A stretch of DNA of 32,252 nucleotides from the IMG/VR virus record IMGVR_UViG_3300042896_001149, positions 1 through 32,252 of that record. One strand, written 5' to 3'. Below are positions 5,938-23,494 of the stretch, in pieces (the stretch's first letter is position 1; each line of letters opens with the position of its first letter). Under the pieces are notes generated by a model. It searched no databases. It worked only from the letters and a program-made list of their open reading frames with translations, and was not told the origin of the DNA. Made by a program: the position numbers and the translations under genes. The DNA is from a virus.

Positions 5938-5949
5938 AATATAACCTCA

Positions 5950-6615: not shown

Positions 6616-6616
6616 A

Positions 6617-7795
6617 TTATCCTATCACAATTCCCTTGCCTAAAGGCATAGGAATGTATCTTAGTTGTTTGTTTAGATTCTCTGCTGCGATGGCATCATT
6701 CTCCAATAACTTTTGATTAGTCAGATTTGCTAAAAAGTCCTTCATCTGTGTGGTTAATTTTTCTTTATCATCCCTAGCTTGAGATACTAACTCAGAACCA
6801 TTTAAGGTTAACTCTGCGTTTGGAATAGGAATAGAAGAAAATTTTGACCTTATTAATCCCAACAATTCTTTGCATAATGCCAAAGTATATTGTCTAATCC
6901 ATTGACGACCTGGTTGGTTGACCGTTGAGAATGGTATATTTCCAAATGGCATGTTGCTAGGACCGGATATTCCATAGATTGAATCGTCCGTATAAGACGT
7001 GGGATTCAACGGACTTTGTGGTTTCATCACCTTGATATACATACGGCCTGTTTGTAGGTCAGAAGCAGGTACAGGATAAATTCTAATATTTCCTCCTAAT
7101 ACTTCATAGCTATAATTTGAACGACGAACTCTAAATGCTTGTTCTAACATTCCTCTTCTAAGAATGTCTTCGAAGACTGGAAGGACATAGAACACCGTAG
7201 AGTTAACATAAGATTCATAATTAAAATTCGTCGCCAAGAAATTGGTAACGTTGGAAGCATTGAGTAAAAAGTGTTGAGCAGCTAACGGTTCAAAGTGAAA
7301 AATCTCTACGATCTTTAACTTTCCTTTTGATCCAGAAGCCATGGACTCATAAATCCCTAACCCGCTAGTGTTGTCCTTTATATCTGAATAGATGTTATAA
7401 TCTTGTTTCCCAGAAACTAATTCAACGTACCCTAACGTTGCGTCGTACGACCCTCCAACGTATGCTTCAGTTGCATACGGTTCTGCCATTCTTAATAGAT
7501 ACTCAACAGTACGTTTGGCGTATCTATTGGTCAAATCTGTAGATCCAGTTGGCATTCCTAAAACGTTTGTAAGATCCGAAGTAATCTTCATTTCATGAAT
7601 GAGACGGCTGTATTCACAACATGCTTCTTCAAAGCAAGTCCATATTTCTTTCTTCGTTAATTCTACGCTAAGAACGTCATCACCCAATTTCCTCTTAACA
7701 AAAAGGACCATGGAATCAGCCTCAGATTGAAACGTTGAATCTGAATCGAAGAACCCGAATGGTGTCGGATTGATTGTCGATAAAAATGTTGTCAT
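6617..7795 (-). CDS. Neck / head-completion protein (gp13-like)
   Basis: Residues about 28-65 contain VKRKLGDDVLSVELTKKEIW followed by CFEEACCEYSRLI. This is the small helical pattern seen at the N-terminus of head-tail connector and neck proteins, with a conserved LG-x-V-x-V-E-x-T turn leading into an acidic helix. The rest is mixed alpha/beta with a GNIRIYPVP strand and a C-terminal helical region. At 392 residues it is longer than T4 gp13 (309). It is the first gene of the minus-strand neck-tail run, next to gp14- and gp15-like genes, which strengthens the gp13 call. AAAGGG lies 9 bases before the ATG. Its promoter should lie in the 258-base divergent region shared with the plus-strand fibre gene. 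Confidence 0.72.
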   Translation of the reverse strand: MTTFLSTINPTPFGFFDSDSTFQSEADSMVLFVKRKLGDDVLSVELTKKEIWTCFEEACCEYSRLIHEMKITSDLTNVLGMPTGSTDLTNRYAKRTVEYLLRMAEPYATEAYVGGSYDATLGYVELVSGKQDYNIYSDIKDNTSGLGIYESMASGSKGKLKIVEIFHFEPLAAQHFLLNASNVTNFLATNFNYESYVNSTVFYVLPVFEDILRRGMLEQAFRVRRSNYSYEVLGGNIRIYPVPASDLQTGRMYIKVMKPQSPLNPTSYTDDSIYGISGPSNMPFGNIPFSTVNQPGRQWIRQYTLALCKELLGLIRSKFSSIPIPNAELTLNGSELVSQARDDKEKLTTQMKDFLANLTNQKLLENDAIAAENLNKQLRYIPMPLGKGIVIG

Positions 7796-11000: not shown

Positions 11001-11098
11001 GTGCTGACTACAGCATCCAAGCTGTCGACAAGATTCGCCTCTCAATGGACACAACGGGAGATGATCGTCTCTTCATTGTTCTCCATAACGCAGCATGA
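8054..11098 (+). CDS. Giant repetitive beta-solenoid fibre protein
   Basis: The protein has 1014 residues. After an 80-residue N-terminal region starting MAITRIQQSQISG, most of the chain is built from a 12-residue unit of the form L-x-V-x-G-x-A-x-L-x-x-x (for example LDVTGAASLSST, LSVTGNATLSAD). This is the pattern of a stacked beta-solenoid. Residues 285-431 hold three exact-length 49-residue modules containing DGDVAQRLYIVDADGSIKDE and TFDGSEL. Around residue 780 a VKGSMTYIDTQNMRVQDAFI segment resembles the fibre-to-tip transition seen in many phage fibres. The C-terminus (VYLNGVRL...DYSI...IRLS) looks like a small beta knob. The ATG at 8054 is chosen over the GTG at 8045 because AAGGTGG fits it. 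It is probably a head or tail fibre. It lies on the plus strand, opposite its neighbours, and uses codons richer in G and C, like the capsid gene. Confidence 0.85.
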   Translation: MAITRIQQSQISGSLSLSDNVSNADLVKSSRTLADDLNSLRTQVKNIMGTSAWTDGLDGSQDLADIYAAMHASGMNAAFQGDVSMAGNADLNGTLDVAGASDLHGDVHAYGALDVDGNAEIGGTFDVAGAASFASTLHVDGAADVDGNFDVAGTSDLHGDVRAYGALRADGNADLNGQLDVAQEVYLAAAGKETQVRGSLSVAEDASLSADLSVSGESSLTGAVSMASTLDVTGAASLSSTLSVTGNATLSADLSVAGDSALAGDLSVAGIADFNGDVTANKISIDGDVAQRLYIVDADGSIKDESKMTFDGSELAIDGDVDASGSVMAASFKIDGDVAQRLYIVDADGSIKDELKLTFDGSELAVDGDIDASGSIFANKMAIDGDVAQRLYIVDADGSIKDESKLTFDGSELAVDGDLSATGAADISGNASVGGTFHAVGNATLDAELSVAGTASFADDASIAGGLSVTGDASLAADLAVMGDAAIMSDLDVAGDSFLAQALNVSGSVAMDSTLAVEGNASFAAELAVTGAVSFSSTLGVTGKATLSDDLELAGDADFNGALDVAGASDLHGAVKMYSTLELSGAADFNGALDVSGASDLHGAVHAYDNLEVDGNASLDADLAVAGNSSLTGTLSVSGASTFADISADDGSFSGDVDVTGAISGASISTSGTASFGGNLSAADASLSSVTTTGTASFGNNVSITGNLSASGDATITGDISAFAADFDHVDVTGYISAGGNLTISGDASITGDLSAADATLASLHVTGNAQIDGNLQVKGSMTYIDTQNMRVQDAFIYLATGSAGTTDSGIVLHEGAGAAMDLVIGQSSGAGEVIFGKSDRSPDGEGSMAGIDLIPAWMSEAKIGSEEGTMVGSILKDGSSLAVSASSDLKLAAGSEEFSLASVGDQAAFEAQFGAVSVISALVSAASGGNFKQDALMPGAVGAGSDINFSAIGSLRSAEIVTDADKKVAMDVYLNGVRLAFGADYSIQAVDKIRLSMDTTGDDRLFIVLHNAA
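8906..9346 (+). repeat. Three tandem 147-bp repeats inside the fibre gene
   Basis: The string GACGTTGCACAACGTCTCTA begins at 8915, 9062 and 9209, exactly 147 bases apart, and the flanking sequence is also nearly identical. Each unit encodes 49 residues. The copies differ mainly at third codon positions and at a few residues (DESKM, DELKL, DESKL). This is an in-frame tandem duplication that could expand or contract by recombination. Confidence 0.95.
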
Positions 11099-11142
11099 AT
11101 TTAGCGTAAGCTAAGTTTTTAAAGGCTAAGACTAACTAGCCG

Positions 11143-11175
11143 GGGCCCAGAGGAAACTCTGGGCCCTTTTTATTT
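11143..11175 (+). terminator. Rho-independent terminator after the fibre gene
   Basis: A perfect 10-base-pair stem, GGGCCCAGAG (11143-11152) with CTCTGGGCCC (11157-11166), encloses a GAAA loop and is followed by TTTTTATTT. It begins 44 bases after the fibre stop and should end its transcript. The next plus-strand gene therefore needs its own promoter or read-through. Confidence 0.95.
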
Positions 11176-11232
11176 ACCTAATTGTACTTATTGAATATTT
11201 TATTATCAAATTTTTTTGAAAGATTATAAACA

Positions 11233-11865
11233 ATGAGCAACAAAGATCAAAAAGACTTCATCAGCACACTGACAACAAGGGCAAGACTGTTGACAGAGCT
11301 TATCGGTGATAAAACGACATCACTAAATTCGATGATCGAAAACATAAAAAGGCTTGATGGCTATGTTCTTGGATCAAAGGAATCAATTGCTAAGGTAGAA
11401 GAACACATCAAGAAACAAAAGAAAGAGCTTGTGGAGCTTTTAACACAAAAGAAAATTCCTCAAGAAGTTGCAAACCTGATAGACGGAGTTCTTCGCAGCA
11501 CTTCAGCTTTTGCAAAGAATGTTGCCATGGATGCAGAAAGGCTCTTCTACTCCAAACAAGGAGAGATGATCTTTTTGAAGCAAGACATTGAAAAACTTTC
11601 TTCAATAAAAGCAAATCATGAATCTGCGTTAACAAACGTTCAAAAGCAACAAGAAGAAAAAGCAGAAACGAAACAAGCGACACCAGTTAAGGATGATGAA
11701 CCTGTTCAGGAAAAGAAGCAGCCCGTAAGACCAGATAAGAACCCAAACACTAAGATTGGTAGAGCTGCCATGGACATCATGGAACGCAAGAAGAAGGCTG
11801 CTGGTTCATCACAAACAACCCAAGAAAACTCTACTAAAAAGAGAGGCAGAAAACCAAAGGCCTAA
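11233..11865 (+). CDS. Coiled-coil protein with basic AT-hook-like tail
   Basis: This is a 210-residue hydrophilic protein I do not recognise. Residues about 5-150 are rich in E, K, Q and L with heptad-like spacing, suggesting long helices (for example KVEEHIKKQKKELVELLTQK). From about 150 the chain is low-complexity (KQATPVKDDEPVQEKKQ) and it ends KKRGRKPKA, a sequence like the core of AT-hook minor-groove DNA binders. A DNA- or head-associated role is possible, as is a fibre chaperone given its position behind the fibre gene; neither is shown. The ATG follows a weak GAAAG. It converges with the gene at 11868, leaving only two bases between the stops. Confidence 0.75.
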   Translation: MSNKDQKDFISTLTTRARLLTELIGDKTTSLNSMIENIKRLDGYVLGSKESIAKVEEHIKKQKKELVELLTQKKIPQEVANLIDGVLRSTSAFAKNVAMDAERLFYSKQGEMIFLKQDIEKLSSIKANHESALTNVQKQQEEKAETKQATPVKDDEPVQEKKQPVRPDKNPNTKIGRAAMDIMERKKKAAGSSQTTQENSTKKRGRKPKA

Positions 11866-11880
11866 TATCAGGCTTTATTA
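11855..11880. terminator. Possible shared terminator between convergent genes
   Basis: AAAGGCCT, AATATC and AGGCTTT form a short hairpin with one bulged base over the two convergent stop codons. It is T-rich on the plus-strand side. The stem is weak, so this is only a candidate. Confidence 0.35.
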
Positions 11881-12263
11881 TAGGTTGCCAACATCTTTGA
11901 ACCAGATCTTGGGGCACGATTGAATGTTATCGTTCTACCAGTTAGATAAAAATCTGCCCCACCTGAGTCTCTCTCTTGTAGGACACCGTTAACGAACACA
12001 AGAACTCTATCGTTTATAGGAGTAAATTCTAACATGAACGTTACGTTCGTACCGTCGATCGCCCCAAGCGGAGCCTCATTCCAAACGATATTGATGTTAT
12101 TTGGAACTAATCTTGCTACTAGCGTGTCCAAGCTGGCAACTTTGTCAATGGTCGCTGTGATGGTGTTCATTTCATCCTCAGTCGTGATCAAAACAGGTCT
12201 AGGTCGAGGCCTGTAATATGAATAAGCCTTTCGAGATCTAGATATATCTCTAACAATCGCCAC
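11868..12263 (-). CDS. Small beta-rich virion protein candidate
   Basis: The 131 residues have an arginine/tyrosine-rich N-terminus (SYYRPRPRP). They end with a domain of the form FTPINDRVLVFVNGVLQ, then ADFYLTGRTITFNRAPRSGS. That F-V-N-G-V-L-Q, Y-x-L-x-G-x-T-I-T-F, A-P-x-x-G-S arrangement is common at the ends of phage fibre and baseplate-associated proteins, and a related VYLNGVRL segment ends the large fibre in this window. The start is uncertain. The GTG at 12263 lies inside a hairpin with a poor ribosome site. An internal ATG at 12170 has GAGG five bases upstream and would give a 100-residue protein containing all of the domain. Confidence 0.7.
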   Translation of the reverse strand: MAIVRDISRSRKAYSYYRPRPRPVLITTEDEMNTITATIDKVASLDTLVARLVPNNINIVWNEAPLGAIDGTNVTFMLEFTPINDRVLVFVNGVLQERDSGGADFYLTGRTITFNRAPRSGSKMLATYNKA

Positions 12264-12283
12264 ATTAATTATGTATTAATGTG
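12261..12283. promoter_or_regulatory. Hairpin covering a GTG start codon
   Basis: CACATTAAT (12261-12269) and ATTAATGTG (12275-12283) form a perfect 9-base-pair stem with a 5-base loop. On the minus strand the last three bases of the 3' arm are the GTG start of the 131-residue gene. Another CACATTAA lies at 12308. The element could block initiation or be a dyad operator. Confidence 0.5.
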
Positions 12284-12331
12284 TCTCAATTAATTTTTGT
12301 TATTGTGCACATTAAGTAACACTAAGTATGC

Positions 12332-13120
12332 TTAAAGTATCTTATAGGCCTCAAAGTGCATTCCATCTGGCCTTTGAGGAAACCATCCTCCCCAATAAAA
12401 CCCATGTTCATAAGCGATGTCAACCAACTCTCTGGTTGATCCAGTCGCGCCTCGAAGCGCAGGTTGAATACCAAGTTGGTTCCATTGAACGTTAATATCA
12501 AATGCCGTTGCCCACGCATGATTTGAAAGAACTGTTCTAGATCCTCTTATAAACCTGGGTGCCCATGATCCTCCCCACGTTACAATTAAATACGTCAATC
12601 CTGCATCATCCCATGCTTTAAATAGATTTAAGAATTGTTGCGAAATTGCTACATGAATTGATACTATTCCAGATTTAGGAAATCCTGGTATTCCTCTTAG
12701 TTGCGAAACATTAACGTTAGTTATACTCTTATTTAACCAATCACCAGTTATTGTGATTCCTTCAGGATTTCCCATTGTAGGTGATGTAACGTAAGAAAAC
12801 CTACCAAACAATTTTTCTCTATCTGTACGACTTAAAGGACCGACAGCAGGTCTTGGAGGCCAGTTTGGACCATTTATGTCAAGCGTAGGATCATCCATCA
12901 GTGGGTATCCAACTTGGATAGCAATAGACATTGTCTTTGGCCCAACCGTACCGTCTGCAATCAATCCTTTTCTATTTTGAAAAGCCTTTGTCTCTAACTC
13001 TGTAACAATATCGAACGTTCCGTTTACGATGACAGAGCTATTCTGTGACAATCCTCTTAGAAAGGTTTGCCATCGATCAACATCAGCACCAGTTGAACCT
13101 CTACGAAGAATTTGCAGCAT
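12332..13120 (-). CDS. Peptidoglycan-binding / M15-type peptidase (endolysin candidate)
   Basis: Residues 1-70 form a PG_binding_1-type domain: LRRGSTGADVDRWQTFL, a GTFD turn, then TKAFQNRKGLIADGTVGPKT. Residues about 150-262 match the zinc D,D- or L,D-peptidase M15 family. SNHAWATAFDIN supplies H201 and D208, and DGMHFEAY supplies H255 as the third zinc ligand. Family members usually have glycine where A204 stands. The enzyme should cleave peptide cross-links of peptidoglycan, either as endolysin or as a virion-associated lysin. No signal peptide is visible, so cytoplasmic accumulation and a separate holin would be needed for lysis; no holin was recognised in the window. A GAGG site lies four bases before the ATG, in the end of the upstream gene. 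Confidence 0.85.
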   Translation of the reverse strand: MLQILRRGSTGADVDRWQTFLRGLSQNSSVIVNGTFDIVTELETKAFQNRKGLIADGTVGPKTMSIAIQVGYPLMDDPTLDINGPNWPPRPAVGPLSRTDREKLFGRFSYVTSPTMGNPEGITITGDWLNKSITNVNVSQLRGIPGFPKSGIVSIHVAISQQFLNLFKAWDDAGLTYLIVTWGGSWAPRFIRGSRTVLSNHAWATAFDINVQWNQLGIQPALRGATGSTRELVDIAYEHGFYWGGWFPQRPDGMHFEAYKIL

Positions 13121-13126
13121 GTGACC

Positions 13127-13342
13127 TCAGAAAGTTGACATCATTTCAACAGCTGTACGAACTCTTTCGCGAAGTTCGTCAGGAAGTGCAGATAAAAGAA
13201 CATATGTCTCAGGACGATACGATCCCTCTACCGGCCCACCTACGGTTTCGGCAGAACTTTTATTAACTGCGACCCTAATAGAAAGAGGAGGGGCTCCGAC
13301 TCGAACATGAACCATTGGTTGATACAAATCTACTCTTTGCAT
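13127..13342 (-). CDS. Small unknown protein, 71 aa
   Basis: I do not recognise this protein. It begins MQRVDLYQPMVHVRVG and has a short basic/hydrophobic start, a central TVGGPVEGSYRPETYVLL segment and a helical end (LPDELRERVRTAVEMM). No membrane segment or signal peptide is visible. The ATG at 13342 has AAGGG six bases upstream. An in-frame ATG at 13348 overlaps the stop of the preceding 59-residue gene as ATGA and cannot be excluded. It ends six bases before the M15 peptidase gene, so it probably sits in that operon. Confidence 0.6.
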   Translation of the reverse strand: MQRVDLYQPMVHVRVGAPPLSIRVAVNKSSAETVGGPVEGSYRPETYVLLSALPDELRERVRTAVEMMSTF

Positions 13343-13344
13343 TG

Positions 13345-13524
13345 TCATCCCTTCAGGATTCCTTGAGACTTACCCAAGGCTTCATTCATTGTAGTAAATC
13401 TACCTTTAAGTAACGACAATGTTTCTTCTAATTGAGAACAATCTTCTCCACGAGCGCGAGATTCTAACAAACGATTCTCTAATTCAACAATTTGTAATAA
13501 CAAAGTCTCTGAAGTTGCTGACAT
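13345..13524 (-). CDS. Small coiled-coil ORF, 59 aa
   Basis: The frame runs from ATG at 13524 to TGA at 13345. Its product is a hydrophilic helix: TLLLQIVELENRLLESRARG, then a second amphipathic stretch SQLEETLSLLKGRF. The stop overlaps an ATG of the next gene (ATGA), typical of translationally coupled phage genes. The ribosome site (AAGAGC region) is weak. It is the first frame after a strong minus-strand terminator, so it probably leads the operon that contains the M15 peptidase. Function unknown. Confidence 0.6.
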   Translation of the reverse strand: MSATSETLLLQIVELENRLLESRARGEDCSQLEETLSLLKGRFTTMNEALGKSQGILKG

Positions 13525-13556
13525 ATAAATAAAATATCGCTCTTAATAGAGCATGT

Positions 13557-13591
13557 AAAAAAACGGATAGATCAATTTAAAATCTATCCGT
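13557..13591 (-). terminator. Rho-independent terminator (minus strand)
   Basis: On the minus strand ACGGATAGAT (plus 13582-13591) pairs perfectly with ATCTATCCGT (plus 13563-13572) around a 9-base loop, followed by seven T residues. It separates the small unknown gene at 13684 from the peptidase operon, which then needs a promoter between here and 13524. Confidence 0.9.
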
Positions 13592-13683
13592 CTTAGGTGG
13601 CGTATGTATTTTTGCTATTATATACGAAAGTAATGAACTTTCGCTAAAATATATATCACCAAAATTGACAAAAATCAATTAAT

Positions 13684-13896
13684 TTAAATTTTAACTGCAA
13701 TTTTTATCATAGCATCAATGTCAGCGATTGATTTTTCTAACTTTGTCTCTAAAGGTATCATGGCAATAGGAACAACACCAGATCCGTTGATACCATCTAG
13801 TCGCCATGTCTTTACTGTACGTAACAGCCCCTCTAACTCATCTTTAACTTTGAGCAAGGTTATCCCCAACGTCGACGGTCTAATAATTTGTGCCAC
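13684..13896 (-). CDS. Small unknown protein, about 70 aa
   Basis: The frame extends to an ATG at 13944, but no ribosome site precedes it. An in-frame GTG at 13896 has AGGTG four bases upstream and gives a product starting MAQIIRPSTLGITL, so that start is preferred. The protein is mostly helical (LLKVKDELEGLLRTVKTWRL, LETKLEKSIADIDAMIKIAV) with a small GINGSGVVP turn. No signal peptide or membrane helix is seen and I do not recognise it. It is followed by a strong terminator after about 90 bases. Confidence 0.55.
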   Translation of the reverse strand: MAQIIRPSTLGITLLKVKDELEGLLRTVKTWRLDGINGSGVVPIAMIPLETKLEKSIADIDAMIKIAVKI

Positions 13897-13972
13897 GTTC
13901 CACCTCGAACATATGTATTTAAATTCATTGATGAAACATGACACAAAATCATTTTTGCCGTTTAAAGCTAGT

Positions 13973-14500
13973 TCACTCCCAATTAATCACACGAAAACAT
14001 GACTTCGTCTGACCAAGGGCACTCATCCATCCTGCTGAAACTACTTCAAGATCAAAATAGTTCCAACACCTTTCGTCTCCCTGACCTGTGGCAACCTGAA
14101 GTTCACGATCAAACAACTTGACATATGTAACTGGACCGACTGACTCCTTGTTACCATTCATCATAAGGTATGTGTCAACTTCTCCACCATCCTTGATAAC
14201 CTTCTTAAACCGAAGCTCAACATCATCACCAGTATCACCACACATTGATGAAACGATGTGACCATTGATTGGTTTCAAATCAACCAACGTTCCTGGTTCA
14301 ATGTTACCATCTACCCTGAATGTATCCTTAAATGCATTCACTCCATCTTCTTGCCGTTCATCAAGAATGAACTCCTCAAGCTCCTCGAGAAGATAATCTG
14401 TGTCGTTGATGATTGAGTAATTCGTACCCACCATCGTTAGTGAATTGTAATGGCTCAGAGCCTTAACTAGAGACAACGCCTGACGCTTAGTAATTTCCAT
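13973..14500 (-). CDS. Unknown acidic protein, 175 aa
   Basis: I do not recognise this protein. It begins with a helix (TKRQALSLVKALSHYN), followed by an acidic stretch (YLLEELEEFILDERQED), then beta-rich sequence with GTLVDLKPINGHIVSSMCGD and a C-terminal WMSALGQTKSCFRVINWE. Two cysteines flank the centre and another lies near the end. There is no signal peptide, so it is probably cytoplasmic. AGGAGG at 14508-14513 lies seven bases before the ATG and is one of the strongest ribosome sites in the window. A terminator-like hairpin ends only a few bases upstream of that site. Confidence 0.75.
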   Translation of the reverse strand: MEITKRQALSLVKALSHYNSLTMVGTNYSIINDTDYLLEELEEFILDERQEDGVNAFKDTFRVDGNIEPGTLVDLKPINGHIVSSMCGDTGDDVELRFKKVIKDGGEVDTYLMMNGNKESVGPVTYVKLFDRELQVATGQGDERCWNYFDLEVVSAGWMSALGQTKSCFRVINWE

Positions 14501-14515
14501 CTTGGTTCCTCCTAT

Positions 14516-14553
14516 AAAAAAAGAAAAGGAGACCCACCGAGAATCTCCTTTTC
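14516..14553 (-). terminator. Terminator-like hairpin directly before a ribosome site
   Basis: On the minus strand GAAAAGGAGA pairs perfectly with TCTCCTTTTC (10 base pairs, 11-base loop), followed by CTTTTTTTA-like T-rich sequence across plus positions 14516-14522. It would end transcripts from the 88-residue gene. It sits only three bases upstream of the AGGAGG of the next gene, and its CTCCT arm is complementary to that AGGAG, so attenuation or ribosome-site masking is also possible. Confidence 0.8.
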
Positions 14554-14573
14554 AAACTAAGTAAGTTTTACTA

Positions 14574-14840
14574 TCAACGACGAGTCTTACCGGTAAACCC
14601 GTAGTGTGTACGAAGCAATCGATAGAGTGTTCGTGCCTCACGGCCTGTAAACTCAACCGTTCCTCCCTGAAGATCAATGAACATACGTGTCGAATCATTA
14701 CGCTCATCAGTGCTCAGTGCAGCATTGAAACCATCATCACGACGGGCAGTCTCTGTTCGAAGCTTGCCAGTACGATCACGACGTGTGCGGATGATTGCAT
14801 TCTTATTGGTCGAGGTTGTATTCTTCTTATTCTTAGGCAT
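14574..14840 (-). CDS. Small basic protein, 88 aa
   Basis: I do not recognise this protein. The first 35 residues are strongly basic (NKNAIIRTRRDRTGKLRTE), the middle is polar, and the C-terminus GREARTLYRLLRTHYGFTGKT forms an amphipathic basic helix. The charge pattern suggests nucleic-acid binding, but no named domain is visible. A GGAG ribosome site precedes the ATG. It lies between the exported-protein operon and the 175-residue gene and is followed by a terminator-like hairpin. Confidence 0.7.
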   Translation of the reverse strand: MPKNKKNTTSTNKNAIIRTRRDRTGKLRTETARRDDGFNAALSTDERNDSTRMFIDLQGGTVEFTGREARTLYRLLRTHYGFTGKTRR

Positions 14841-14908
14841 TTTCTAATCTCCAATTAATTTCGATTTAATCTATGTCGGCTTAAATGACTTGCCGGATGA
14901 TAGAAGGA

Positions 14909-14931
14909 TACACACATACCAAACGTGTGTA
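14909..14931. other. Small inverted repeat between operons
   Basis: TACACAC (14909-14915) and GTGTGTA (14925-14931) form a 7-base-pair dyad with a 9-base spacer, between the DUF1501-like stop and the 88-residue gene. No T-run follows on either strand, so it is more likely an operator or mRNA hairpin than a terminator. Confidence 0.4.
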
Positions 14932-14953
14932 CAAAAACCTAATTCAAAAGAGA

Positions 14954-16558
14954 TTATGACTTAGAATTGATCAACCCAGGAATGATGTTTGGAGAATTTC
15001 CAAACTCTGCGGTCTTGTTAGAGTCTCCACGGGCAGTGGCATAAACTGCTGCAGTGGAAGAAAATGATGACATCTGCTCAGAAGTCTTGCTAGGATCGTC
15101 CATTCCTGTCACCGGATTATATCCAATTCCATTACGATTATTTACCTTGTTCGAATAGCAATGACCAAACCAACCATTCTTAATGTGCCCCTTAGGGTCC
15201 ATCACATATGACCAGTTACAGGAATCTGGGGTTGCGTCAGGCCAGGCATTTCCTTGCAGGGGTGTGTGAGGTGTGTCACCGTAGGCAACAAGCACTGTGC
15301 TCTGATCTAACTTCTCGGTGGGACTCTCAGGATCAGACTGCTGCGACAAATAGCCATAGAAGCCATCCAGGGCCTTCCCTAAATGCTTCGTAGTATTCCG
15401 ACCTTGGTTCATCAAGGTTGTTGAATCAAATGTCACGTGAGGGTCTGTGAAGGTCGTATCGCTGGTCGGTCCTGGAGATAAAGCAACGATGGCTGTCTTG
15501 CTGAGACCCAAAGCAAAGGCCTTCGCAACCACTATGAGAACTCTACCAAACTCTTCTATTCCGTTCCTCTGAGCAACGGTCATGTAAGAAGAACTAGAAT
15601 TAAGACCATCTATCATCTCCTGAATTCCAAAGTCGATTAGGTCTTGGCTCGTCGGAGTCAATTGAGTTGCAAAGTTCAATCCGATGATCCGTGCAGCATT
15701 CTTGGTGATTGACATTTGAGGTAACCAAGTCGATCTTGAAGAAGACTTCCTCAGCCCGACAAGGGCCTTGTAATAAACTTCAAAGATTTCTTGATCAGTC
15801 TTCGTCGCCAGAGTGAACTGACTTGCAGCCGAATTAAACAAATCAATCATACCATTGGCGCTAGGAACAGTGGCAACTTCAGGAGCACCCGGAGCTCTAC
15901 CATACTTTACCGGATCTATTCCCAAGACAGGAACTATTGCTCCTGAACCGGCGGCCCCTAGAGATGCCAAGGCTGCTTGCATCGAAGCATTTCCAGAAAG
16001 AACTGTCGCTGAAGTTGGAAATTCCGTGTGGGTCTCATCCTTACCTGACATTAGCGCAGTGACAGGATACTTTGGAATTCCATTCACATGATCGAAACAA
16101 GGAGCATGAGGACCGTAAAAGAAAGATCGGTCTCCACCATTCCATCCCTTAACCCCATTTGGAAGAGTCGGCATGACATTTCCCTTACCCCACGTATATG
16201 TTCCACGATATCCATTACCAGGATTGTAACCGTACTGAGAGGTATAGAGGTAGGAAGAGAATCCACCAAACTGCGAAGATTGTCCAGGAACATTTGCATT
16301 CTGGCAAGCCTTCAAGGCAACGTCGGCAACTGGCCATAATTCTTGGAACCAGGCATAGACTCCATTTGGGGATGGAATAATAAGAGATCTTCCGTAAGTA
16401 GATCCTGCGGCTTCTGCTAAACCATATCCACCTTCGTCTGCCAGGAAGTTTAACAAGTCAGTCCTCGAAACACCTATTGCAGCTGCGGTTGCAGTGCACA
16501 TCTTAAGAAAATTTCTACGTCGTTCGCTACGAAGATCTTTTAATTTCCAATTAGCCAT
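14954..16558 (-). CDS. Tat-exported DUF1501-like protein
   Basis: The 534-residue protein starts with a twin-arginine-type signal: ERRRNFLKMCTATAAAIGVS, matching R-R-x-F-L-K followed by a mildly hydrophobic alanine-rich stretch. The mature part has an LGKALDGFYGYLSQ helix, then STVLVAYGDTPHTPLQGNAW and a DPKGHIKNGWFGHC segment. This order resembles the C-terminal part of DUF1501 proteins, an alkaline-phosphatase/sulfatase-fold family in which a dimetal-type site is expected, where a V-x-x-x-G-E-F-G-R-T-P stretch precedes the final histidine/tryptophan segment. The reaction of the family is not established. It is the last gene of a three-gene operon with two lipoprotein-like genes, starting 12 bases after the second with an AAGGAAG ribosome site. 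Such a protein is not a known virion component. DUF1501 is the best guess from pattern, not proof. Confidence 0.65.
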   Translation of the reverse strand: MANWKLKDLRSERRRNFLKMCTATAAAIGVSRTDLLNFLADEGGYGLAEAAGSTYGRSLIIPSPNGVYAWFQELWPVADVALKACQNANVPGQSSQFGGFSSYLYTSQYGYNPGNGYRGTYTWGKGNVMPTLPNGVKGWNGGDRSFFYGPHAPCFDHVNGIPKYPVTALMSGKDETHTEFPTSATVLSGNASMQAALASLGAAGSGAIVPVLGIDPVKYGRAPGAPEVATVPSANGMIDLFNSAASQFTLATKTDQEIFEVYYKALVGLRKSSSRSTWLPQMSITKNAARIIGLNFATQLTPTSQDLIDFGIQEMIDGLNSSSSYMTVAQRNGIEEFGRVLIVVAKAFALGLSKTAIVALSPGPTSDTTFTDPHVTFDSTTLMNQGRNTTKHLGKALDGFYGYLSQQSDPESPTEKLDQSTVLVAYGDTPHTPLQGNAWPDATPDSCNWSYVMDPKGHIKNGWFGHCYSNKVNNRNGIGYNPVTGMDDPSKTSEQMSSFSSTAAVYATARGDSNKTAEFGNSPNIIPGLINSKS

Positions 16559-16570
16559 TTTACATCTTCC

Positions 16571-17605
16571 TTATTGACAAGAATGAGCAGCACTCAACAA
16601 CACGGCGACAGCGATATTACGCTTTTTTGTTAAATCCGTCTGATCACCTGGATTTGCTTTTTGAACAATTAAATTGCAAAGCAACATGTGATCCTCTGTA
16701 GCAGGCTGTCCGATAAGACAACTTACACTTTCCTCAACGCAACTTCCGTCGCTGGGATCAAACATCGGTCTATTCTTTCCATTCAAGGTGCATGCAGGAG
16801 CCTTTAATGAATTACCAATATTCATAATGATCTGCGGAGCTGATTGAACGAAAATATCCATTAATCTCATCGCAGAAGCAGTTGAATGTTCATCCTTCTC
16901 AGAAAGACGAGAATCAAGCTTTGGAACGCCAAGGGCATCCTTACCAGAAAAGTACAAGTACCCAGCAGTCGAAGGCTTGGAAACACAATATCCGTCCTTG
17001 GCATCAGGTGAATTATTTCCTACGTCCAAACAACCACGATTAATTTCGTTTACTTTATCGTCTTGGTTACAGAAACAAACCTCACCAGCAGGACACAATG
17101 GATCATTACCCTGTCCAGAACCGTTTGCCGCAGTGTCTGCCATTTCACAAACGTTATTACTTCCTCCAAAAATGCTTCCCAAAGACTGTGTAGATCCAAA
17201 CAATGTTACCATGGAGTTTTTCAAGTCAGAAACTCCACCAGGAGGTACAGATACACCTCTATTACGTAAGAAATTGCCAAGCTGTGAATATGTCAACTTA
17301 TGGCAACTATGAAGTCTTGAAGCAATTTCATCGGCCATGGGAACATCATATACCTCAGCTTCCATTCCACTCCCAGTTGACGTTGCTACAGAGGAAACAG
17401 AAGATGCTGTTGAAACGCTCGATGTTCCTCCTACACCAGAGGTAACTGCTGAAACAGTTGCAACAATTGTGGGATCTTCAGGTTCTGGACATTCATTATC
17501 TCCGATGTCCGGAGCTACCGTTCCGCATGACACGGACATCATATAAAAAGTCATTAGCGCAATTATGGGAAATCCTAATCCAATCCTACCGCTATTTTTA
17601 TTCAT
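16571..17605 (-). CDS. Lipoprotein-like exported protein, cysteine-rich
   Basis: The N-terminus NKNSGRIGLGFPIIALMTFYMMSVSCG is a basic-hydrophobic signal ending at a cysteine, like a degenerate lipobox. A low-complexity Ser/Thr/Val linker follows (VSTASSVSSVATSTGSG), then a domain starting LHSCHKLTYSQLGNFLRNRG. That motif recalls the R-L-T-x-x-E-Y-N-N-x-V-R-D-L-L start of DUF1587-type secreted cytochrome-associated proteins, with C-H instead. The middle has many cysteines (PLCPAGEVCFCNQDD), as in disulfide-bonded periplasmic proteins. The frame opens at 17629, but the ATG at 17605 is preferred: it lies five bases after the stop of the upstream gene and has GAGG ten bases upstream, suggesting coupled translation. 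Function unknown. Confidence 0.65.
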   Translation of the reverse strand: MNKNSGRIGLGFPIIALMTFYMMSVSCGTVAPDIGDNECPEPEDPTIVATVSAVTSGVGGTSSVSTASSVSSVATSTGSGMEAEVYDVPMADEIASRLHSCHKLTYSQLGNFLRNRGVSVPPGGVSDLKNSMVTLFGSTQSLGSIFGGSNNVCEMADTAANGSGQGNDPLCPAGEVCFCNQDDKVNEINRGCLDVGNNSPDAKDGYCVSKPSTAGYLYFSGKDALGVPKLDSRLSEKDEHSTASAMRLMDIFVQSAPQIIMNIGNSLKAPACTLNGKNRPMFDPSDGSCVEESVSCLIGQPATEDHMLLCNLIVQKANPGDQTDLTKKRNIAVAVLLSAAHSCQ

Positions 17606-17609
17606 TTGT

Positions 17610-19088
17610 TTAGAACCTCGTGAAATCATCAGAAACGAGTATCTCTCTAAAAACCTTCTTCAAATTATAGTTATTAGACTTAAACAAAGAAACGAGCTTT
17701 GATGTCGTTAATAGTTGTTGATTTTGATCTTTACGGTCAGGAAGGTTGACCCAACTACGACCGCCAATCTCAGTTATGTCAGCTCGACCCATCATATAAT
17801 TCCACGTTCTCTTCACTGCACATTCAACGACCTCGTCATCCTTAGCCATTTGTTGACCCAACTCTGTGAGGTTTGAAGCAGGAGCAGGAGTCTCTACACC
17901 ATCAACCTTCATGACCTTCTTCCAGGCCGTCGTGTTCTGACCCGCGTTCGGGCAGGTGGCCGGGTTGATGCACAACCAGTCGGACAGCTTTGCTTTTGGA
18001 GATCCAGAGACTGGAACGAAAACGGCATATTCTCCAAGGCCAGTCAACGGTTGATAAACACCCTTAGAATCAAACTGTGAGAACAGCGGGGCTCTATGGT
18101 TCCATGTTGAATGACAGTTTGAACACACATTTCCGGCATTGTACGCATGAAAATCTACTCGACCTCCGTTACAAGCACCTGCAATCTCATTCACAGGCCA
18201 CTTGTTTTGATAACCTGGAATTGCAGCACCTCCTGCGCATGGTGGATCTTGCGGAGGCATGTCGGTTGGCTCACCACCAGCCTGCTCATTTCCTGATCGA
18301 CACAGGAACGTCTCGTGATAGAAACGATTCCTACGAAACGATAGGTTCCCAAAGAATAAACTTTGAACACCAGGATCTGTAAGAATGCCCGAAGACTTCA
18401 TCCCAACAGGAAGATTGTTACAATTTGCTGGAGAAAATGTATGATTCGTGGAATTGAAGCTCGGACAAGTGCCTGATTCCTGGGTAAGAATGCCTCTCCA
18501 ATCTCCACTTTCATACACAATCTTTGCCGCGAGGGTAGGAGCCGTGTCTCTCGTTGGCTCTCCTGGTGTGGTTGCAGCTCCACCCATCTTAAAGGTGTAT
18601 TTATAGAATTCTACCAGCGTGTCGGCAAACCGTTGATCTGATAACATCTTATCGATCATCTCCTCATACTTTGCCTTCTGTTGTTCCTTGGGAGTATCTC
18701 CTAGCTCATAGAGCTGTGAAACAGTAGGAGCGTCGCCTATGATCAAAATACTAGCTGTTCGCAAAGCTTCAGAATAATCTAACTCTCGTTCATCCAATTC
18801 AGTCTTTTCAACCTGGGGTTGATTACCAGAACCAGTAGAGGCTCCCGTAGAGACAGAAGATGCGCTCGTGTTAGAAGCTTGTTTCCCTCCTGAAGTCACA
18901 CCAACTGCTGTTCCTGATGAAGGTTTAACTTCAGGACCGCTTGCTGTGGACGGAGTCGGACAATCGTTAAGCACGGCCGATGTATCACCTGCAATCTTGT
19001 TCGGATTAGGTCTCTCACACCCATATGCTACCAATCCAGACAATAAAAATAAAAGTATAACGTTCTTCAAAGAGCTATTCATAGGCAT
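17610..19088 (-). CDS. Lipoprotein-like DUF1549/DUF1553-like protein with haem-c motif
   Basis: From the ATG at 19088 the protein has 492 residues. A signal SLKNVILLFLLSGLVAYGC ends at a cysteine (C24), followed by a Ser/Thr/Gly linker to about residue 95. EALRTASILIIGDAPTVSQL and KYEEMIDKMLSDQRFADTL match the DUF1549 theme of a helix pair ending in D-x-L-L-x-x-x-R-F. CSNCH (C322, C325, H326) is a cytochrome-c haem motif. The C-terminus (CAVKRTWNYMMGR, then LVSLFKSNNYNLKKVFREIL) matches the end of DUF1553/DUF1585-type proteins. These families occur as secreted cytochrome-like proteins encoded beside DUF1501 genes, notably in Planctomycetes and myxobacteria-like groups. The frame also offers a TTG at 19103 and an ATG at 19082; the ribosome site is weak. 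It leads the three-gene operon. Confidence 0.7.
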   Translation of the reverse strand: MPMNSSLKNVILLFLLSGLVAYGCERPNPNKIAGDTSAVLNDCPTPSTASGPEVKPSSGTAVGVTSGGKQASNTSASSVSTGASTGSGNQPQVEKTELDERELDYSEALRTASILIIGDAPTVSQLYELGDTPKEQQKAKYEEMIDKMLSDQRFADTLVEFYKYTFKMGGAATTPGEPTRDTAPTLAAKIVYESGDWRGILTQESGTCPSFNSTNHTFSPANCNNLPVGMKSSGILTDPGVQSLFFGNLSFRRNRFYHETFLCRSGNEQAGGEPTDMPPQDPPCAGGAAIPGYQNKWPVNEIAGACNGGRVDFHAYNAGNVCSNCHSTWNHRAPLFSQFDSKGVYQPLTGLGEYAVFVPVSGSPKAKLSDWLCINPATCPNAGQNTTAWKKVMKVDGVETPAPASNLTELGQQMAKDDEVVECAVKRTWNYMMGRADITEIGGRSWVNLPDRKDQNQQLLTTSKLVSLFKSNNYNLKKVFREILVSDDFTRF

Positions 19089-19131
19089 GTAACCATAATA
19101 CAACCGTCACTAAAAAAAAGATAAAAATATC

Positions 19132-19455
19132 TTACTTGTTATTATGCCTTAATATCAAAGGATTATCCTGGACCTTCCAGAGCTCCTTGAGCAACGGTGG
19201 TTGTTCACCTTCGCGGAACCACATGAGCTTCCTTCCACCCGTCGAAGGATAAACACCTATGACAATGATCTCACCGGCATGGATCAAGTCGTGACAAGAG
19301 TGGCACACAACGGCTAGATTATGGTTGTCGTTGGAACAACGCGGATCACAACGAGGAATGATGTGATGAAAGTTCAACGCCGCAGGTCGATCAAATCCAC
19401 AGACCTCACATCGGTTTTTGATGAGCTGCGGTTGATTACGGCTACGACGTTTCAC
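19132..19455 (-). CDS. Free-standing HNH endonuclease
   Basis: The 107-residue protein has the compact HNH layout. A CEVCG zinc knuckle (C16, C19) is followed by ALNFHHIIPRCDP (H30, H31), then HNLAVVCHSCHDLIHAG, with N46 and the second knuckle C51/C54 plus H55 and H59. The HH pair supplies the general base and metal ligand; the N and final H complete the motif. Such small enzymes are usually mobile nicking or homing endonucleases in phage genomes. The only start in frame is GTG at 19455, with no clear ribosome site, so expression may be low or coupled. It sits between a fibre-like gene and the exported-protein operon. Confidence 0.88.
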   Translation of the reverse strand: MKRRSRNQPQLIKNRCEVCGFDRPAALNFHHIIPRCDPRCSNDNHNLAVVCHSCHDLIHAGEIIVIGVYPSTGGRKLMWFREGEQPPLLKELWKVQDNPLILRHNNK

Positions 19456-19491
19456 TCAAGAATTATATTCTACTTTTTATTATTGATAACA

Positions 19492-19950
19492 TCAAGTTCC
19501 GCTGATCGCATGAGAGCCTGAAGCTGCCATCAACAAAAATGATGCCCCGTCGCTGATAAGTGCGACGGATGAGCCTTGAACGGCAGAAAGTGTTAACTTA
19601 CTTCCTTGCGTATCGGGAGTTGCACCAGCCTGGCCTGCAAAAACCTTAGTTCCGTTTGCTTCTTGAGAACCAGTTAGAATGTGAGCATGAGCAGAAGCCG
19701 TACGAAACACGAATGTTCCACCAGGGACTGAAGATGCTAAAGGCATTATCATCGTTAATGCAGTACTTCCAGATACCGTATATGCTCCAGGACTAACTAA
19801 AGTTTCAGCAGCTGTCTTTGCAGAAACAGTCGTTGTCGGTAACGATGTCATAGAAACTGGCGAGTTTATTGAAACAGAAGAATTAAATTCTACGCCAGAA
19901 CCCGTGCTTTGAACTAAACCTTGTGAATCGTTAATTGTAACTTTTGGCAT
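19492..19950 (-). CDS. Fibre- or decoration-like virion protein, 152 aa
   Basis: The protein is rich in Ser, Thr, Val, Ala and Gly and looks all-beta. VSPGAYTVSGSTALTMIMP is followed by GGTFVFRTASAHAHILTGSQ, and the end has SKLTLSAVQGSSVALISDG then SFLLMAASGS. This series (P-G-x-Y-x-L-x-x, then G-x-x-x-x-F-x-N/R-x, then G-S-S-V-x-L-x-S-D-G) is common in small phage capsid-decoration or fibre-tip proteins. A strong AAAAAGGAG site precedes the ATG. The gene lies downstream of the capsid gene, separated only by a homing endonuclease, so a capsid-surface role is reasonable but unproven. Confidence 0.65.
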   Translation of the reverse strand: MPKVTINDSQGLVQSTGSGVEFNSSVSINSPVSMTSLPTTTVSAKTAAETLVSPGAYTVSGSTALTMIMPLASSVPGGTFVFRTASAHAHILTGSQEANGTKVFAGQAGATPDTQGSKLTLSAVQGSSVALISDGASFLLMAASGSHAISGT

Positions 19951-19979
19951 GATGTGATCTCCTTTTTGTTCGCAAGATT

Positions 19980-20022
19980 CCGAACCACCGGCGAGGTCGG
20001 TTGATCACAGGTTCGGGCCTGT
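19980..20022. other. Structured intercistronic element
   Basis: Two mutually exclusive pairings are possible: CCGAACC (19980-19986) with GGTTCGG (20010-20016), and ACAGG (20007-20011) with CCTGT (20018-20022). The element lies directly after the homing-endonuclease stop and before the decoration-like gene. Neither form is followed by a T-run. It could be a processing site or a relic of the endonuclease insertion. Confidence 0.35.
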
Positions 20023-21480
20023 TCATAAGTATTGACCATTATCAAGTAAGATGTATAAATCACAAACAAAAACCGAAGAACCGCAGCCATAGATTCTTGA
20101 AACGTTGGCTTCATTGACAATCTGTCGTTCTGACTTGCCATCTCGGGCTCTAAACCTAAAACGATCATAACGAAGATGGTTGTCTGTATACCAATAATCA
20201 ACAGGAGTCGTACCAGTCATGCTAAACCCAGCAGACCTATATCCATTACCTTCTCCAACCCTTCTATCGACATAGGTCATGATTCTTGAATATCCATTTG
20301 ACTTGCACCAAGACTTTGCCGTTTTCAACAACTTGGACAATCCTCCTGGAACAGAAGTTCCTATCGCTGTACTGAACCTGGCTATCTCTAGACATCCTTC
20401 GTACTTCTTTCCGTGACGAGGGACCCTCAACGATAATGCAGCTACGATGTTATTGCTTCTGTCCCTCAAACCCCAGGTGATCTTTGAAGGAACATACCCG
20501 GAGATATGGGTGGAATCAAAGAATTCTCTCTGCTCTTTTGAATTCAACTCCACAACCTTAGTAGACCAAGTCTTACACCGGTGAGCATCTAACCCAAGAC
20601 GATGGAGGATCATAGACTCGCATATCCCTCGCTTGTCCCTCCATTCATCCTCAAATATCTGTAGCAACTTTATTCCCTTTTCAGAAGCCAAGACGGATTT
20701 CTTCAGGTGCTTGTTCTTGTCGAATATCTCGTCCTGCTTGGCTCCATCGCTGTGCCAATACAGTCCGTGACACTCGATTCCAAACTTTTTGGATGGAACA
20801 TAGACGTCTATCTCCTTCGGAGCGATGACCCTCTTGTCTCCTGATACGGCATCTTGTGTTATCGATTGGACATAAGAAAATACCTCTAATTCCCAATTGG
20901 ATTTACCAACCGGATGGCATCGATAACACCTACTGCCTCTTTCGAAGGCTTGAAGGGTTTTTGGTTGTAGTTCTCCACACTTGGTGCACTGGAATGTTAG
21001 GTATTGCTCTTGTCTAGAGACATATTGATCTACAGGTGTTATCATGATGAACTCAGATTGCCTTGCAGATAATCTTTCATTTAATGTTGAGGTTACCAAT
21101 AGTTTGCTTAAACTAATTTTTTGTAGGGTATCCTGGGTGTGGTGTCGACCGTAAAAAGGGTTGCCTGTACCAATCATCTTTTCTGACTGTTGTTTGATCC
21201 TATCATCTGTCTGTTTGGTCTTGCCGCGGTTCCAAGCTTCTGCTTTTCCGCCTCGTGAACCGCCTTCCTTCATTGCAAGATGTGAATGATCCTTACAAAA
21301 AGTCTTGAAAGAGAAAGACACATACCTGACAGGAGCTTGACACTCTCTACAGGCAGGTTTTATTCCGTCATGATAAACCCTTACCGTGTAGTCCTCAGAA
21401 GACAATCCGTGTTCTGATCTGATGTGATTGGTCAGCTTCTTTAGATCATCATGTTTGAATTCACACAACTTGCAGTCCAT
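20023..21480 (-). CDS. NUMOD3 / VSR-like homing endonuclease
   Basis: The 485-residue protein starts with a C2H2-type finger (C3, C6, H19, H24). A NUMOD3-type DNA-binding segment follows at about 85-125 (RGKTKQTDD, then GNPFYGRHHTQDTLQKIS). A zinc ribbon FQCTKCGE...CYRCHP spans 164-190. A VSR-like nuclease core at about 194-280 has SNWELEVF, KEIDVYVPSKKFGIECHGLYWH and LLQIFEDEW. E223, D225 and E236 are candidate catalytic residues. This resembles the I-Bth0305I family of PD-(D/E)xK homing enzymes. The C-terminal 200 residues look like an additional domain (GGLSKLLKTAKSWCKSNGYS). Such enzymes spread by cutting phages that lack the insert. Position directly behind the capsid gene is typical of phage homing elements. 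Confidence 0.85.
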   Translation of the reverse strand: MDCKLCEFKHDDLKKLTNHIRSEHGLSSEDYTVRVYHDGIKPACRECQAPVRYVSFSFKTFCKDHSHLAMKEGGSRGGKAEAWNRGKTKQTDDRIKQQSEKMIGTGNPFYGRHHTQDTLQKISLSKLLVTSTLNERLSARQSEFIMITPVDQYVSRQEQYLTFQCTKCGELQPKTLQAFERGSRCYRCHPVGKSNWELEVFSYVQSITQDAVSGDKRVIAPKEIDVYVPSKKFGIECHGLYWHSDGAKQDEIFDKNKHLKKSVLASEKGIKLLQIFEDEWRDKRGICESMILHRLGLDAHRCKTWSTKVVELNSKEQREFFDSTHISGYVPSKITWGLRDRSNNIVAALSLRVPRHGKKYEGCLEIARFSTAIGTSVPGGLSKLLKTAKSWCKSNGYSRIMTYVDRRVGEGNGYRSAGFSMTGTTPVDYWYTDNHLRYDRFRFRARDGKSERQIVNEANVSRIYGCGSSVFVCDLYILLDNGQYL

Positions 21481-21545
21481 ATCATCACACCCTTCTATGG
21501 ACTATATAGTATCGATAAATCTAAAGTTGTAATAAAACAGACGGC

Positions 21546-21577
21546 AAAAACTACAAAGGCCACCCAAAAGGTGGCCT
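21546..21577 (-). terminator. Terminator after the major capsid gene
   Basis: On the minus strand AGGCCACC (plus 21570-21577) pairs with GGTGGCCT (plus 21557-21564) around a 5-base loop, followed by TTGTAGTTTTT. The T-run is interrupted but the stem is perfect and GC-rich. It lies about 40 bases after the capsid stop and insulates the homing endonuclease from capsid transcription. Confidence 0.75.
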
Positions 21578-21616
21578 CTGCAGCTGTTCAAGCTATGAAC
21601 TCAGATGACGTTCATG

Positions 21617-23494
21617 TCATATGATATTCATGTCGAGACATGTGACGGTGCCAAAGAAATCGCTGCGAACCATCTTCTTACCGTAGCGAGTCATCACACC
21701 CTTACGTGGTGTGAAATCTTCTGGTGCGAAGATTGTTGGTGTCACAATGAGTGGAACGTATGGTGCGTAGACGTAGCCGGTCTCGAGGTAGCTGCCGCCT
21801 TTGTAGCCGACGAGGATCTTGTTACGAACGAAGTAAGGATCCTTGTAGACTGTGAAGCGGTTGCTGAGAGAGCCGATTGCCTCTGCACCGATTGTGAATG
21901 GAGAAGCGACTTGACCTTCACCGTCGATGGAGAACTTTGGTTTATAGAGGACAGAGCTCTCGAGGACTGTTGCAACGTCTGGGCCGCAGACCATGAAGTT
22001 TGCAGAGCCGCGGAGTGTCTTGCGGTGGATGGTGTTTGCCACGTCGATGATTGTCTCGACGAGGGTCTCGTACCACTCGCGAACCGTACCTGTGAAGGCT
22101 GGTCCGATTGAGAGGGAAGAGGCGAGGGCAACAGGTGTGCCTGTTACCTTGTTGACAAACTTGCCTGGTGCGCGTGACCAGTAGTAGTTTGCGCCGTTTG
22201 CCTGTGTGACGAGGTCGCTGAGAATCTCGCGATCAATCTCAAGAGCAATTTGCTCGGAGAGGATTGAAGTGAGTTCCACCTCTGCATCCATTGAGTGGTA
22301 TGCATTGAGGTCTTGGGCGAGCTCTGGTGACCAGCGAGCGCGGAGCTTGCGGGTTGTTGCAGTTATCGCAAGAGACTCAATCTTGATATCAATCTCTGGA
22401 ATTGCTGGGGATGGGGATGTTCCGAAGTCGGACTCGAAGGATGGAATCGTGAGTGTTGATCCTGTTCCTGCGGAATCTGCGCCACCTGCGACGACTGAGT
22501 CAGACTTGGAGAATGCGAAGCGAGCACCGGTTGTCGCGATGATTGCTGTTGCATCGGCGGCCTTGACGACCATCTGAACGTGAGTACCGTTGAGTGCATC
22601 GACCGTGAAGCCGGATTGTGACCAGTTACCACGCTTGTTGAGGCGGCGAAGGTTGAGAACGCCACTTCCACCTTGGTAGGTCTGTCCCCATACAGATGCG
22701 TTAGTCAGACCGCTGAACACAGCGACCTGATCGACTGCGAGGAGATCTGCACCGGTGAGTGAAGATGCAGAGACATAGAGGAAGCAAACATCGAGATCGT
22801 TGTTCTGAAGGGCTGTCTCAACTTGGCTGTCGAAGTCCATGAGGCGAGCATTGCTGCCGGAGAACATCGTTGAACCAGAGAGCATGCCGTTGTAGAATGC
22901 GCCGAGGCCATCAGAGCCGCCCCAGATACCTAGCGCGGATGCGGCGGTAGCGAGAGAGACGCTCTGAAGTGAACCAGTCACCCTTGAGTAACCTGTACCA
23001 ACGAGGTCGTACATACCACCAGTTGCAAGAGATCCGGATTGGACTCCGCGGCCGGTTGGGTTATTGTAGATAGAGGTACCACGTGAGTAGGTCGCCTCAG
23101 ATGACTGACCTGCAGCTTGACCGACGTTGGTTCCGTAGGTGTAATCAAGATAGAAGATTAGACCTGATGGAAGGCTCATTGGTTGGATGGAAACGAGCTC
23201 GTTGGCGACGAGGCCACCGAACACGCGGCGGACGATTGGGAATGCAATGTTGCTGAAACCCTGAATCTGTCCGGATGAAGAAACGTTGCCGCCGCCTGTT
23301 GAGAGAGATGAACTCTCCTTGAGGACCTGTGCTGCCTGGTTTTCGAGAAGTTGCGACATCATCTCGCGGCGTTGTCCGTCGAGACCACGAAGAAGTCCTG
23401 TGCGGGACCACTTCTCCGTGAGGCGGGCACGCTCTGCGCCGACGTGGCGCTCGCGGATACCCTGCGAAAGTTGATCAATTGTAAAAGTCTTCAT
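21617..23494 (-). CDS. Major capsid protein (gp23-like)
   Basis: The 625-residue protein carries the gp23 N-terminal pattern: MSQLLENQAAQVLKESS, then QGFSNIAFPIVRRVFGGLVA and ELVSIQPMSLPSGLIFYLDY. In T4 the gp23 N-terminal region is removed by the gp21 protease during maturation; a protease gene is present upstream here. The central part contains an IEIDREILSDLV-like helix and a GSANFMVCGPDVATVLES segment characteristic of the HK97-fold core. The protein forms the hexamers of the prohead shell. CAGGAGATACAAAA gives a strong ribosome site. Codons are visibly more G/C-ending than in neighbours, consistent with high expression. It follows the scaffold candidate, in the T4 order, and is closed by a hairpin. 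Confidence 0.95.
   Translation of the reverse strand: MKTFTIDQLSQGIRERHVGAERARLTEKWSRTGLLRGLDGQRREMMSQLLENQAAQVLKESSSLSTGGGNVSSSGQIQGFSNIAFPIVRRVFGGLVANELVSIQPMSLPSGLIFYLDYTYGTNVGQAAGQSSEATYSRGTSIYNNPTGRGVQSGSLATGGMYDLVGTGYSRVTGSLQSVSLATAASALGIWGGSDGLGAFYNGMLSGSTMFSGSNARLMDFDSQVETALQNNDLDVCFLYVSASSLTGADLLAVDQVAVFSGLTNASVWGQTYQGGSGVLNLRRLNKRGNWSQSGFTVDALNGTHVQMVVKAADATAIIATTGARFAFSKSDSVVAGGADSAGTGSTLTIPSFESDFGTSPSPAIPEIDIKIESLAITATTRKLRARWSPELAQDLNAYHSMDAEVELTSILSEQIALEIDREILSDLVTQANGANYYWSRAPGKFVNKVTGTPVALASSLSIGPAFTGTVREWYETLVETIIDVANTIHRKTLRGSANFMVCGPDVATVLESSVLYKPKFSIDGEGQVASPFTIGAEAIGSLSNRFTVYKDPYFVRNKILVGYKGGSYLETGYVYAPYVPLIVTPTIFAPEDFTPRKGVMTRYGKKMVRSDFFGTVTCLDMNII

Follow-up and report, generated by a model that had tools for sequence, protein, structure and literature searches.

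Why does a T4-like phage carry, between its capsid and neck genes, three genes that resemble an exported operon of a bacterium? The question is raised by a 32,252-bp IMG/VR virus record, which was analysed over its full length and is referred to here as the window. A preliminary description of this DNA had read the three genes as an operon for two lipoprotein-like proteins and one twin-arginine protein, had placed them near DUF families known from bacterial secreted proteins, and had raised the possibility of a new phage-encoded system acting on the host envelope.

Organization of the trio and its surroundings

Three co-directional ORFs on the minus strand span positions 14954–19088 in the order C-B-A, with gaps of 4 and 12 bp, confirming the operon as first read (Table 1). 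For two of the genes, relatives favour a start inside the longest ORF: C is open for 497 aa from a TTG at 19103, with the ATG at 19088 preferred, and the B ORF opens at 17629, with 17605 preferred. The T4-like setting among capsid-associated and lysis genes was likewise borne out, the flanks containing a gp23 capsid gene, an intein-bearing portal gene, gp15-like and sheath-like genes, and an M15/peptidoglycan (PG)-binding lysin. No promoter was identified for the trio; the T4 late promoter TATAAATA has two matches in the window, which is chance level, and none lies in front of C. Terminator-like hairpins around the trio are not more numerous in the region than in shuffled sequences, and the one downstream of A is a consensus match only.

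Table 1. Coordinates of the trio and of neighbouring features in the window
Feature	Coordinates	Strand	Remarks
Gene C	17610..19088	-	Predicted lipoprotein with export signal and a single CxxCH heme-c motif; remotely PSCyt/PSD-like (DUF1549-DUF1588-DUF1585)
Gene B	16571..17605	-	Predicted cysteine-rich lipoprotein, assigned to no known family; homologues come from the same operon
Gene A	14954..16558	-	Predicted Tat-exported protein; putative remote DUF1501 relative with alkaline-phosphatase/sulfatase-like fold
Conserved phage gene (88 aa) directly downstream of A	14574..14840	-	43–85% identity across relatives
Terminator-like hairpin with T-run	14523..14553	-	Possible end of the C-B-A transcript; consensus match only
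Small HNH protein directly upstream of C	19132..19455	-	Found also in trio-less phages
Homing endonuclease	20023..21480	-	NUMOD3, phrog_3339; within the recently exchanged block
gp23-like major capsid gene	21617..23494	-	PF07068, 3e-77; borders the cargo site upstream
Lysin (M15 peptidase plus peptidoglycan-binding domain)	12332..13120	-	Inside the cargo zone
gp13-like neck gene	6617..7795	-	Assignment from gene order; forms the second border of the cargo site

Several features of the surroundings stand apart from the trio. The T4-like portal gene (28773–31838, minus strand) is split by an intein that includes an HNH endonuclease (Pfam matches: intein, 7e-12; HNH_3, 2e-9). Two tandem sheath-like genes of unequal length (3–1454 and 1513–4608, minus strand) match the same place in relatives, at ~32–46% versus 53–84% identity, and are thus related to each other. 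On the opposite strand, a 1017-aa gene (8045–11098) with a GC content of ~54%, against 43% for the window, has a bactofilin match (7e-25) in its repetitive N-terminal part and keeps the same inverted orientation in several relatives. The homing endonuclease gene downstream of the capsid gene recurs at this position in several relatives, whether or not they have the trio.

Predicted products of the three genes

Direct naming of the trio with Pfam and NCBIfam gave no family at 1e-3, though the Tat signal model TIGR01409 passes its own cut-off with A (18.9 bits against 16.7). The N-terminus of A carries the twin-arginine signal RRRNFLK (pattern RRxFLK), in which the RR is invariant in the alignment. 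In B and C, a hydrophobic signal peptide is followed by a lipobox Cys that is invariant in the alignments (C29 in A5, C35 in A2), and both are predicted to be bacterial lipoproteins. The export signals in the preliminary description thus stand for all three proteins. B, whose lipobox reads SCG or ACG, shows many invariant Cys in the alignment of its homologues and has no database family match.

A CxxCH motif is kept in 32 of 32 phage and bacterial homologues of C, and it falls within the aligned DUF1588 segment, at the domain end. The Pfam matches of C in the window lie below their gathering scores: PSD2/DUF1585 (PF07624; E 0.002, 18.2 bits against 25.8), PSCyt2/DUF1549 (PF07583; E 0.003, 18.1 bits against 29.8) and PSCyt3/DUF1588 (PF07627; E 0.22, 12.3 bits against 27). 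Among the phage members, PSD2/DUF1585 matches all 14 (best E 5.4e-7) and PSCyt2/DUF1549 matches 12 of 14 weakly; the best scanned bacterial homologue reaches 27.6 bits with the latter. These sub-threshold matches in nearly all members, together with CxxCH, suggest that C is of the PSCyt/PSD type, a remote relative of the DUF1549/1588/1585 proteins. CxxCH alone is no proof of heme, and the heme-c site of C is predicted from the motif.

For A, Pfam gave no DUF1501 (PF07394) match in the window, and none is listed at E ≤ 1 for the 14 phage members. The lack of matches at Pfam thresholds, which on its face speaks against the families first proposed, is overturned by profile–profile and fold evidence. 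With hhalign, A scored 95.4% against DUF1501 over 364 columns (E 1.9e-8 for one comparison), whereas C, as a negative control, scored 0.1%; DUF1552/HXXSHH (PF07586) gave 19.8% over just 49 columns, located at the Tat signal. An AlphaFold model from 14 close sequences was unusable (pLDDT 34), and one from a broader alignment reached moderate confidence (pLDDT 63, pTM 0.73). When the latter was compared with known structures, 50 of the 50 matches listed belonged to the sulfatase/alkaline-phosphatase superfamily (Z up to 8.9, rmsd 4–5, ~230 aligned), the best being mainly sulfatases, LtaS, phosphodiesterases/autotaxin and cofactor-independent phosphoglycerate mutase; Foldseek E-values were weak, with a best of 0.29. 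A keeps DPH and GDTP motifs, and the invariant DPH (372–374) and GD (427–428) are candidate metal ligands. Collectively, the profile–profile comparison and the fold search suggest for A a remote kinship with DUF1501 and a fold like that of sulfatases and alkaline phosphatases. A structure search against viral proteins yielded no convincing match, and a sequence search of solved structures found no relatives.

Of the families named at the outset, then, the DUF1549/DUF1585 direction (with DUF1588) holds for C and a remote DUF1501 kinship for A, although no Pfam family reaches its curated cut-off in the window proteins. DUF1553 (PF07587), with matches in three of the 14 phage C members (best E 0.014), has no clear support, and DUF1587 gave no match.

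Recurrence of the trio among related phages

The search for the trio beside T4-like genes that had been proposed found it at the same place in many independent contigs. Counted by contig name, it occurs whole or in part on ~43 distinct IMG/VR contigs, including ones of 187, 205 and 211 kb. The queries were C, A and an alignment of A, together with the capsid and neck proteins. The order MCP-C-B-A-gp13 is found wherever enough sequence is present (counted by locus, as contigs repeat). A chimeric assembly with host DNA was rejected, since the junctions are common to many contigs and the trio has a GC content of 45%, against 63–71% in host contigs.

Conservation of the trio is similar to that of the capsid gene, A being 80–98% identical within class I (class II is described below). 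The three genes are under strong purifying selection, with median dN/dS values of 0.057 for A, 0.11 for B and 0.081 for C at saturated synonymous sites. The export signal motifs persist in the phage copies even where the signal sequences around them have diverged.

Of the capsid relatives whose sequence extends 7 kb or more downstream, most with capsid identity ≥75% have the trio, the exceptions being L119/L120, L129 and L172; below 75%, none has it. At the same site, L172 (a 298-kb record) instead has unrelated genes together with a small HNH gene and a homing endonuclease gene. The trio is absent throughout the large trio-less records L172, L139, L164 and L180, which may be fragments. The close phages L119, L129 and L172 without it indicate that the trio is not essential for all, and the differing contents of the site between relatives mark the capsid-to-neck region as a variable cargo zone. 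Past this zone, from ~14 kb, translations of L230 and L119 read as RNA-polymerase-sigma-like and UV-endonuclease-like genes on the opposite strand.

Ancestry in Polyangiales chromosomes

A single genome scan located A on six contigs of Myxococcota MAGs, with 61–78% identity and a GC content of 63–71%. Its neighbours there are host genes as read from their translations: nuoN/M/L-like (L032), ClpB-like (L033), and TatD- and pseudouridine-synthase-like (L034). The order C-B-A is kept where the contig permits (L033, L035). In each of five Myxococcota genomes, between one and three close copies of A are present, plus a distant one. Across the order Polyangiales, A occurs in 42 of 184 genomes and C in 41 of 184, mostly at matching places with B between them; in a sample of the phylum Myxococcota, A occurs in 10 of 284 genomes. 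The presence of the same operon on Polyangiales chromosomes agrees with the earlier view of the trio as host-type rather than virion-type.

The A tree unites 24 phage sequences in a single starred clade, nested in a starred group to which freshwater Polyangiales copies also belong. The C tree agrees, with a support of 93 for the phage class-I fork, just under that for a star. The phage copies nest inside bacterial diversity, pointing to a host-derived operon of freshwater Polyangiales (Myxococcota). Intact, on bona fide phage contigs and of host ancestry, the trio can be classed on sequence grounds as host-derived auxiliary genes. A DNA search for a prophage or CRISPR link between window positions 1–20000 and Polyangiales returned only the trio itself and one 33-bp terminator-like hairpin. 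As no spacer or prophage was found, assignment of the host rests on gene ancestry, by which the trio-bearing phages probably infect lake Polyangiales. The hairpin (11143–11175), 94% identical to one adjoining a 5S-rRNA-like sequence in the Polyangiales genome L241, is possibly a borrowed host rRNA terminator, or a chance match.

A second capture and a recent block exchange

A class II trio is present in L178 (a 200-kb record), L230/L233 and L231/L234. Just 29–39% identical to the window trio, it matches the latter in gene order and in its location behind the capsid gene, and it carries a Tat signal, a lipobox and CANCH. L178 groups with the other bacterial class in the A tree, and a single phage clade was rejected by the AU test (p 6.1e-60 for C, 2.8e-30 for A). 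By these phylogenies, phages captured the operon on at least two occasions at a single genomic site; the new phage-encoded system proposed earlier is a captured Polyangiales operon and not a phage invention. That two paralogue classes were taken up separately at this site speaks for selection on operon function. After its class II trio, L178 has further cargo at 17463–21106, with translations that read as nucleotidyltransferase-like and as two kinase-like proteins.

Between the window and L001, DNA identity is 93% over 14961–19477 and 87% over 20059–22691, a stretch with the homing endonuclease gene and the 3' portion of the capsid gene; both flanks are at 67–70%. Such a high-identity block amid divergent flanks indicates a recent transfer of trio and endonuclease between phages that are distant elsewhere in their genomes. 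The homing endonuclease may have driven this transfer.

Proposed role and competing explanations

We propose, with a probability of about 0.5, that the trio is a host-derived auxiliary envelope or metabolic module that oxidizes or hydrolyses envelope or carbohydrate substrates in the periplasm. In this reading, a complete Polyangiales C-B-A operon has been captured by a clade of large T4-like phages and kept as capsid–neck cargo. In infection, possibly from late expression, the phage would make the Tat-exported A, the heme-c lipoprotein C, once loaded with heme, and the cysteine-rich lipoprotein B. The three would assemble in the periplasm or outer membrane into a complex that adds to or replaces the host paralogues and catalyses the oxidation or hydrolysis, from which the phage might benefit. 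Uptake at least twice at the same viral site suggests that the phages probably alter host envelope chemistry during infection. Lake-bacterial PSCyt genes neighbour sulfatases and some encode carbohydrate-binding modules, which suggests a carbohydrate role (PMC5615132). DUF1501-DUF1800 pairs travel with chitin synthase genes (PMC5122149). By these associations, a redox or hydrolytic action would be most likely and exclusion or receptor masking next. Among the functional ideas of the preliminary description (exclusion, a redox or sulfatase-like activity, lysis timing), the redox/hydrolase one appears to fit best.

An overproduced host-type complex, or a displaced host receptor paralogue, might instead bar related phages. 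The export signals on A, B and C would suit such superinfection exclusion or receptor masking, as would a patchy cassette swapped between phages and the existence of host paralogues, which makes a decoy or replacement possible. Exclusion lipoproteins are usually single small genes, however, and here an entire operon of large proteins is kept. The slow evolution of A and the invariance of the putative metal motifs and of CxxCH point to a conserved activity. Although exclusion by surface lipoproteins that phages encode is known (Ltp family, PMC3952083), we consider this role, the main alternative to the module, unlikely. A late change of the outer membrane or surface polysaccharide that aids lysis or progeny release would fit the presence of the M15/PG-binding lysin in the same cargo zone; however, the lysin lies apart from the trio and is independently inverted (L007) or not detected (L004), and bacterial copies of the operon come without lysis genes, making this a poor candidate.

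Position between capsid and neck genes might suggest that A, B and C decorate the virion rather than the host envelope. This is very improbable given the conservation of Tat and lipoprotein signals within diverging signal sequences, the chromosomal occurrence of the same operon in bacteria, and the related phages L172 and L139, which build virions without the trio. Passive carriage by the adjacent homing endonuclease, with little benefit to the phage, is in keeping with the 87–93% identity to L001 of the endonuclease-containing block 14961–22691, but is largely refuted by the strong purifying selection and the two independent captures.

A more specific form of the redox/hydrolase proposal remains tentative. 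Here, T4-like phages that infect lake myxobacteria would possess a mobile, complete periplasmic module of a heme-c PSCyt-type lipoprotein, a sulfatase-fold Tat enzyme and a Cys-rich lipoprotein. Taken up at one site on two or more occasions and passed from phage to phage along with a homing endonuclease, the module would re-run host envelope or carbohydrate oxidation in infection.

Relation to known systems

The closest counterparts of the trio are the Polyangiales chromosomal operons (L033 on CANMZR010000059.1, L032, L035), which have the same genes, order, signals and CxxCH; identity to L033 is 75/59/69% for A/B/C. Unlike the phage trio, they lie on high-GC chromosomes among ordinary host genes, with several paralogues per genome. 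T4-like cyanophages carry host-derived auxiliary genes (psbA and others) under purifying selection, and the trio resembles these as host genes kept under such selection in phage genomes. It differs as a whole exported envelope operon from another bacterial phylum.

Planctomycete and verrucomicrobial PSCyt/PSD systems (PMC5615132) also place a PSCyt/PSD protein beside partner genes, and the likeness extends to the weak matches of C to PSCyt2, PSCyt3 and PSD2 and to the putative remote DUF1501 kinship of A. In contrast to them, the trio falls below Pfam cut-offs in the window, has the extra lipoprotein B without a match and is phage-borne. Bacterial DUF1501-DUF1800 operons (PMC5122149) share a Tat-exported DUF1501 protein encoded in one operon with a second DUF protein, and one bacterial C homologue (L087) has a weak DUF1800 match (5e-4); these operons, however, have two genes, are linked to chitin synthase and have no heme lipoprotein described. 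The Ltp exclusion lipoproteins (PMC3952083) are likewise phage-encoded surface lipoproteins, but each is a single gene of a temperate phage, and no similarity to the trio was found.

A tblastn search of 50,697 GenBank phages with A, C and class-II A gave no match, PHROGs contained no match to the trio, and the open-licence PMC literature yielded no paper dealing with these phages or with phage-borne PSCyt genes. Host-derived auxiliary genes as such are already known; a complete exported heme-lipoprotein/sulfatase-fold operon, captured twice, appears to be new. Well-known phage auxiliary genes function mostly in the cytoplasm or the photosynthetic membrane. An exported operon that is strongly constrained and was captured twice at one site suggests that some feature of the myxobacterial envelope is worth changing in infection. 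The trio also serves as an entry point to the PSCyt/DUF1501-type gene sets found commonly in some lake bacteria, and it hints at which host a group of large uncultured phages infects.
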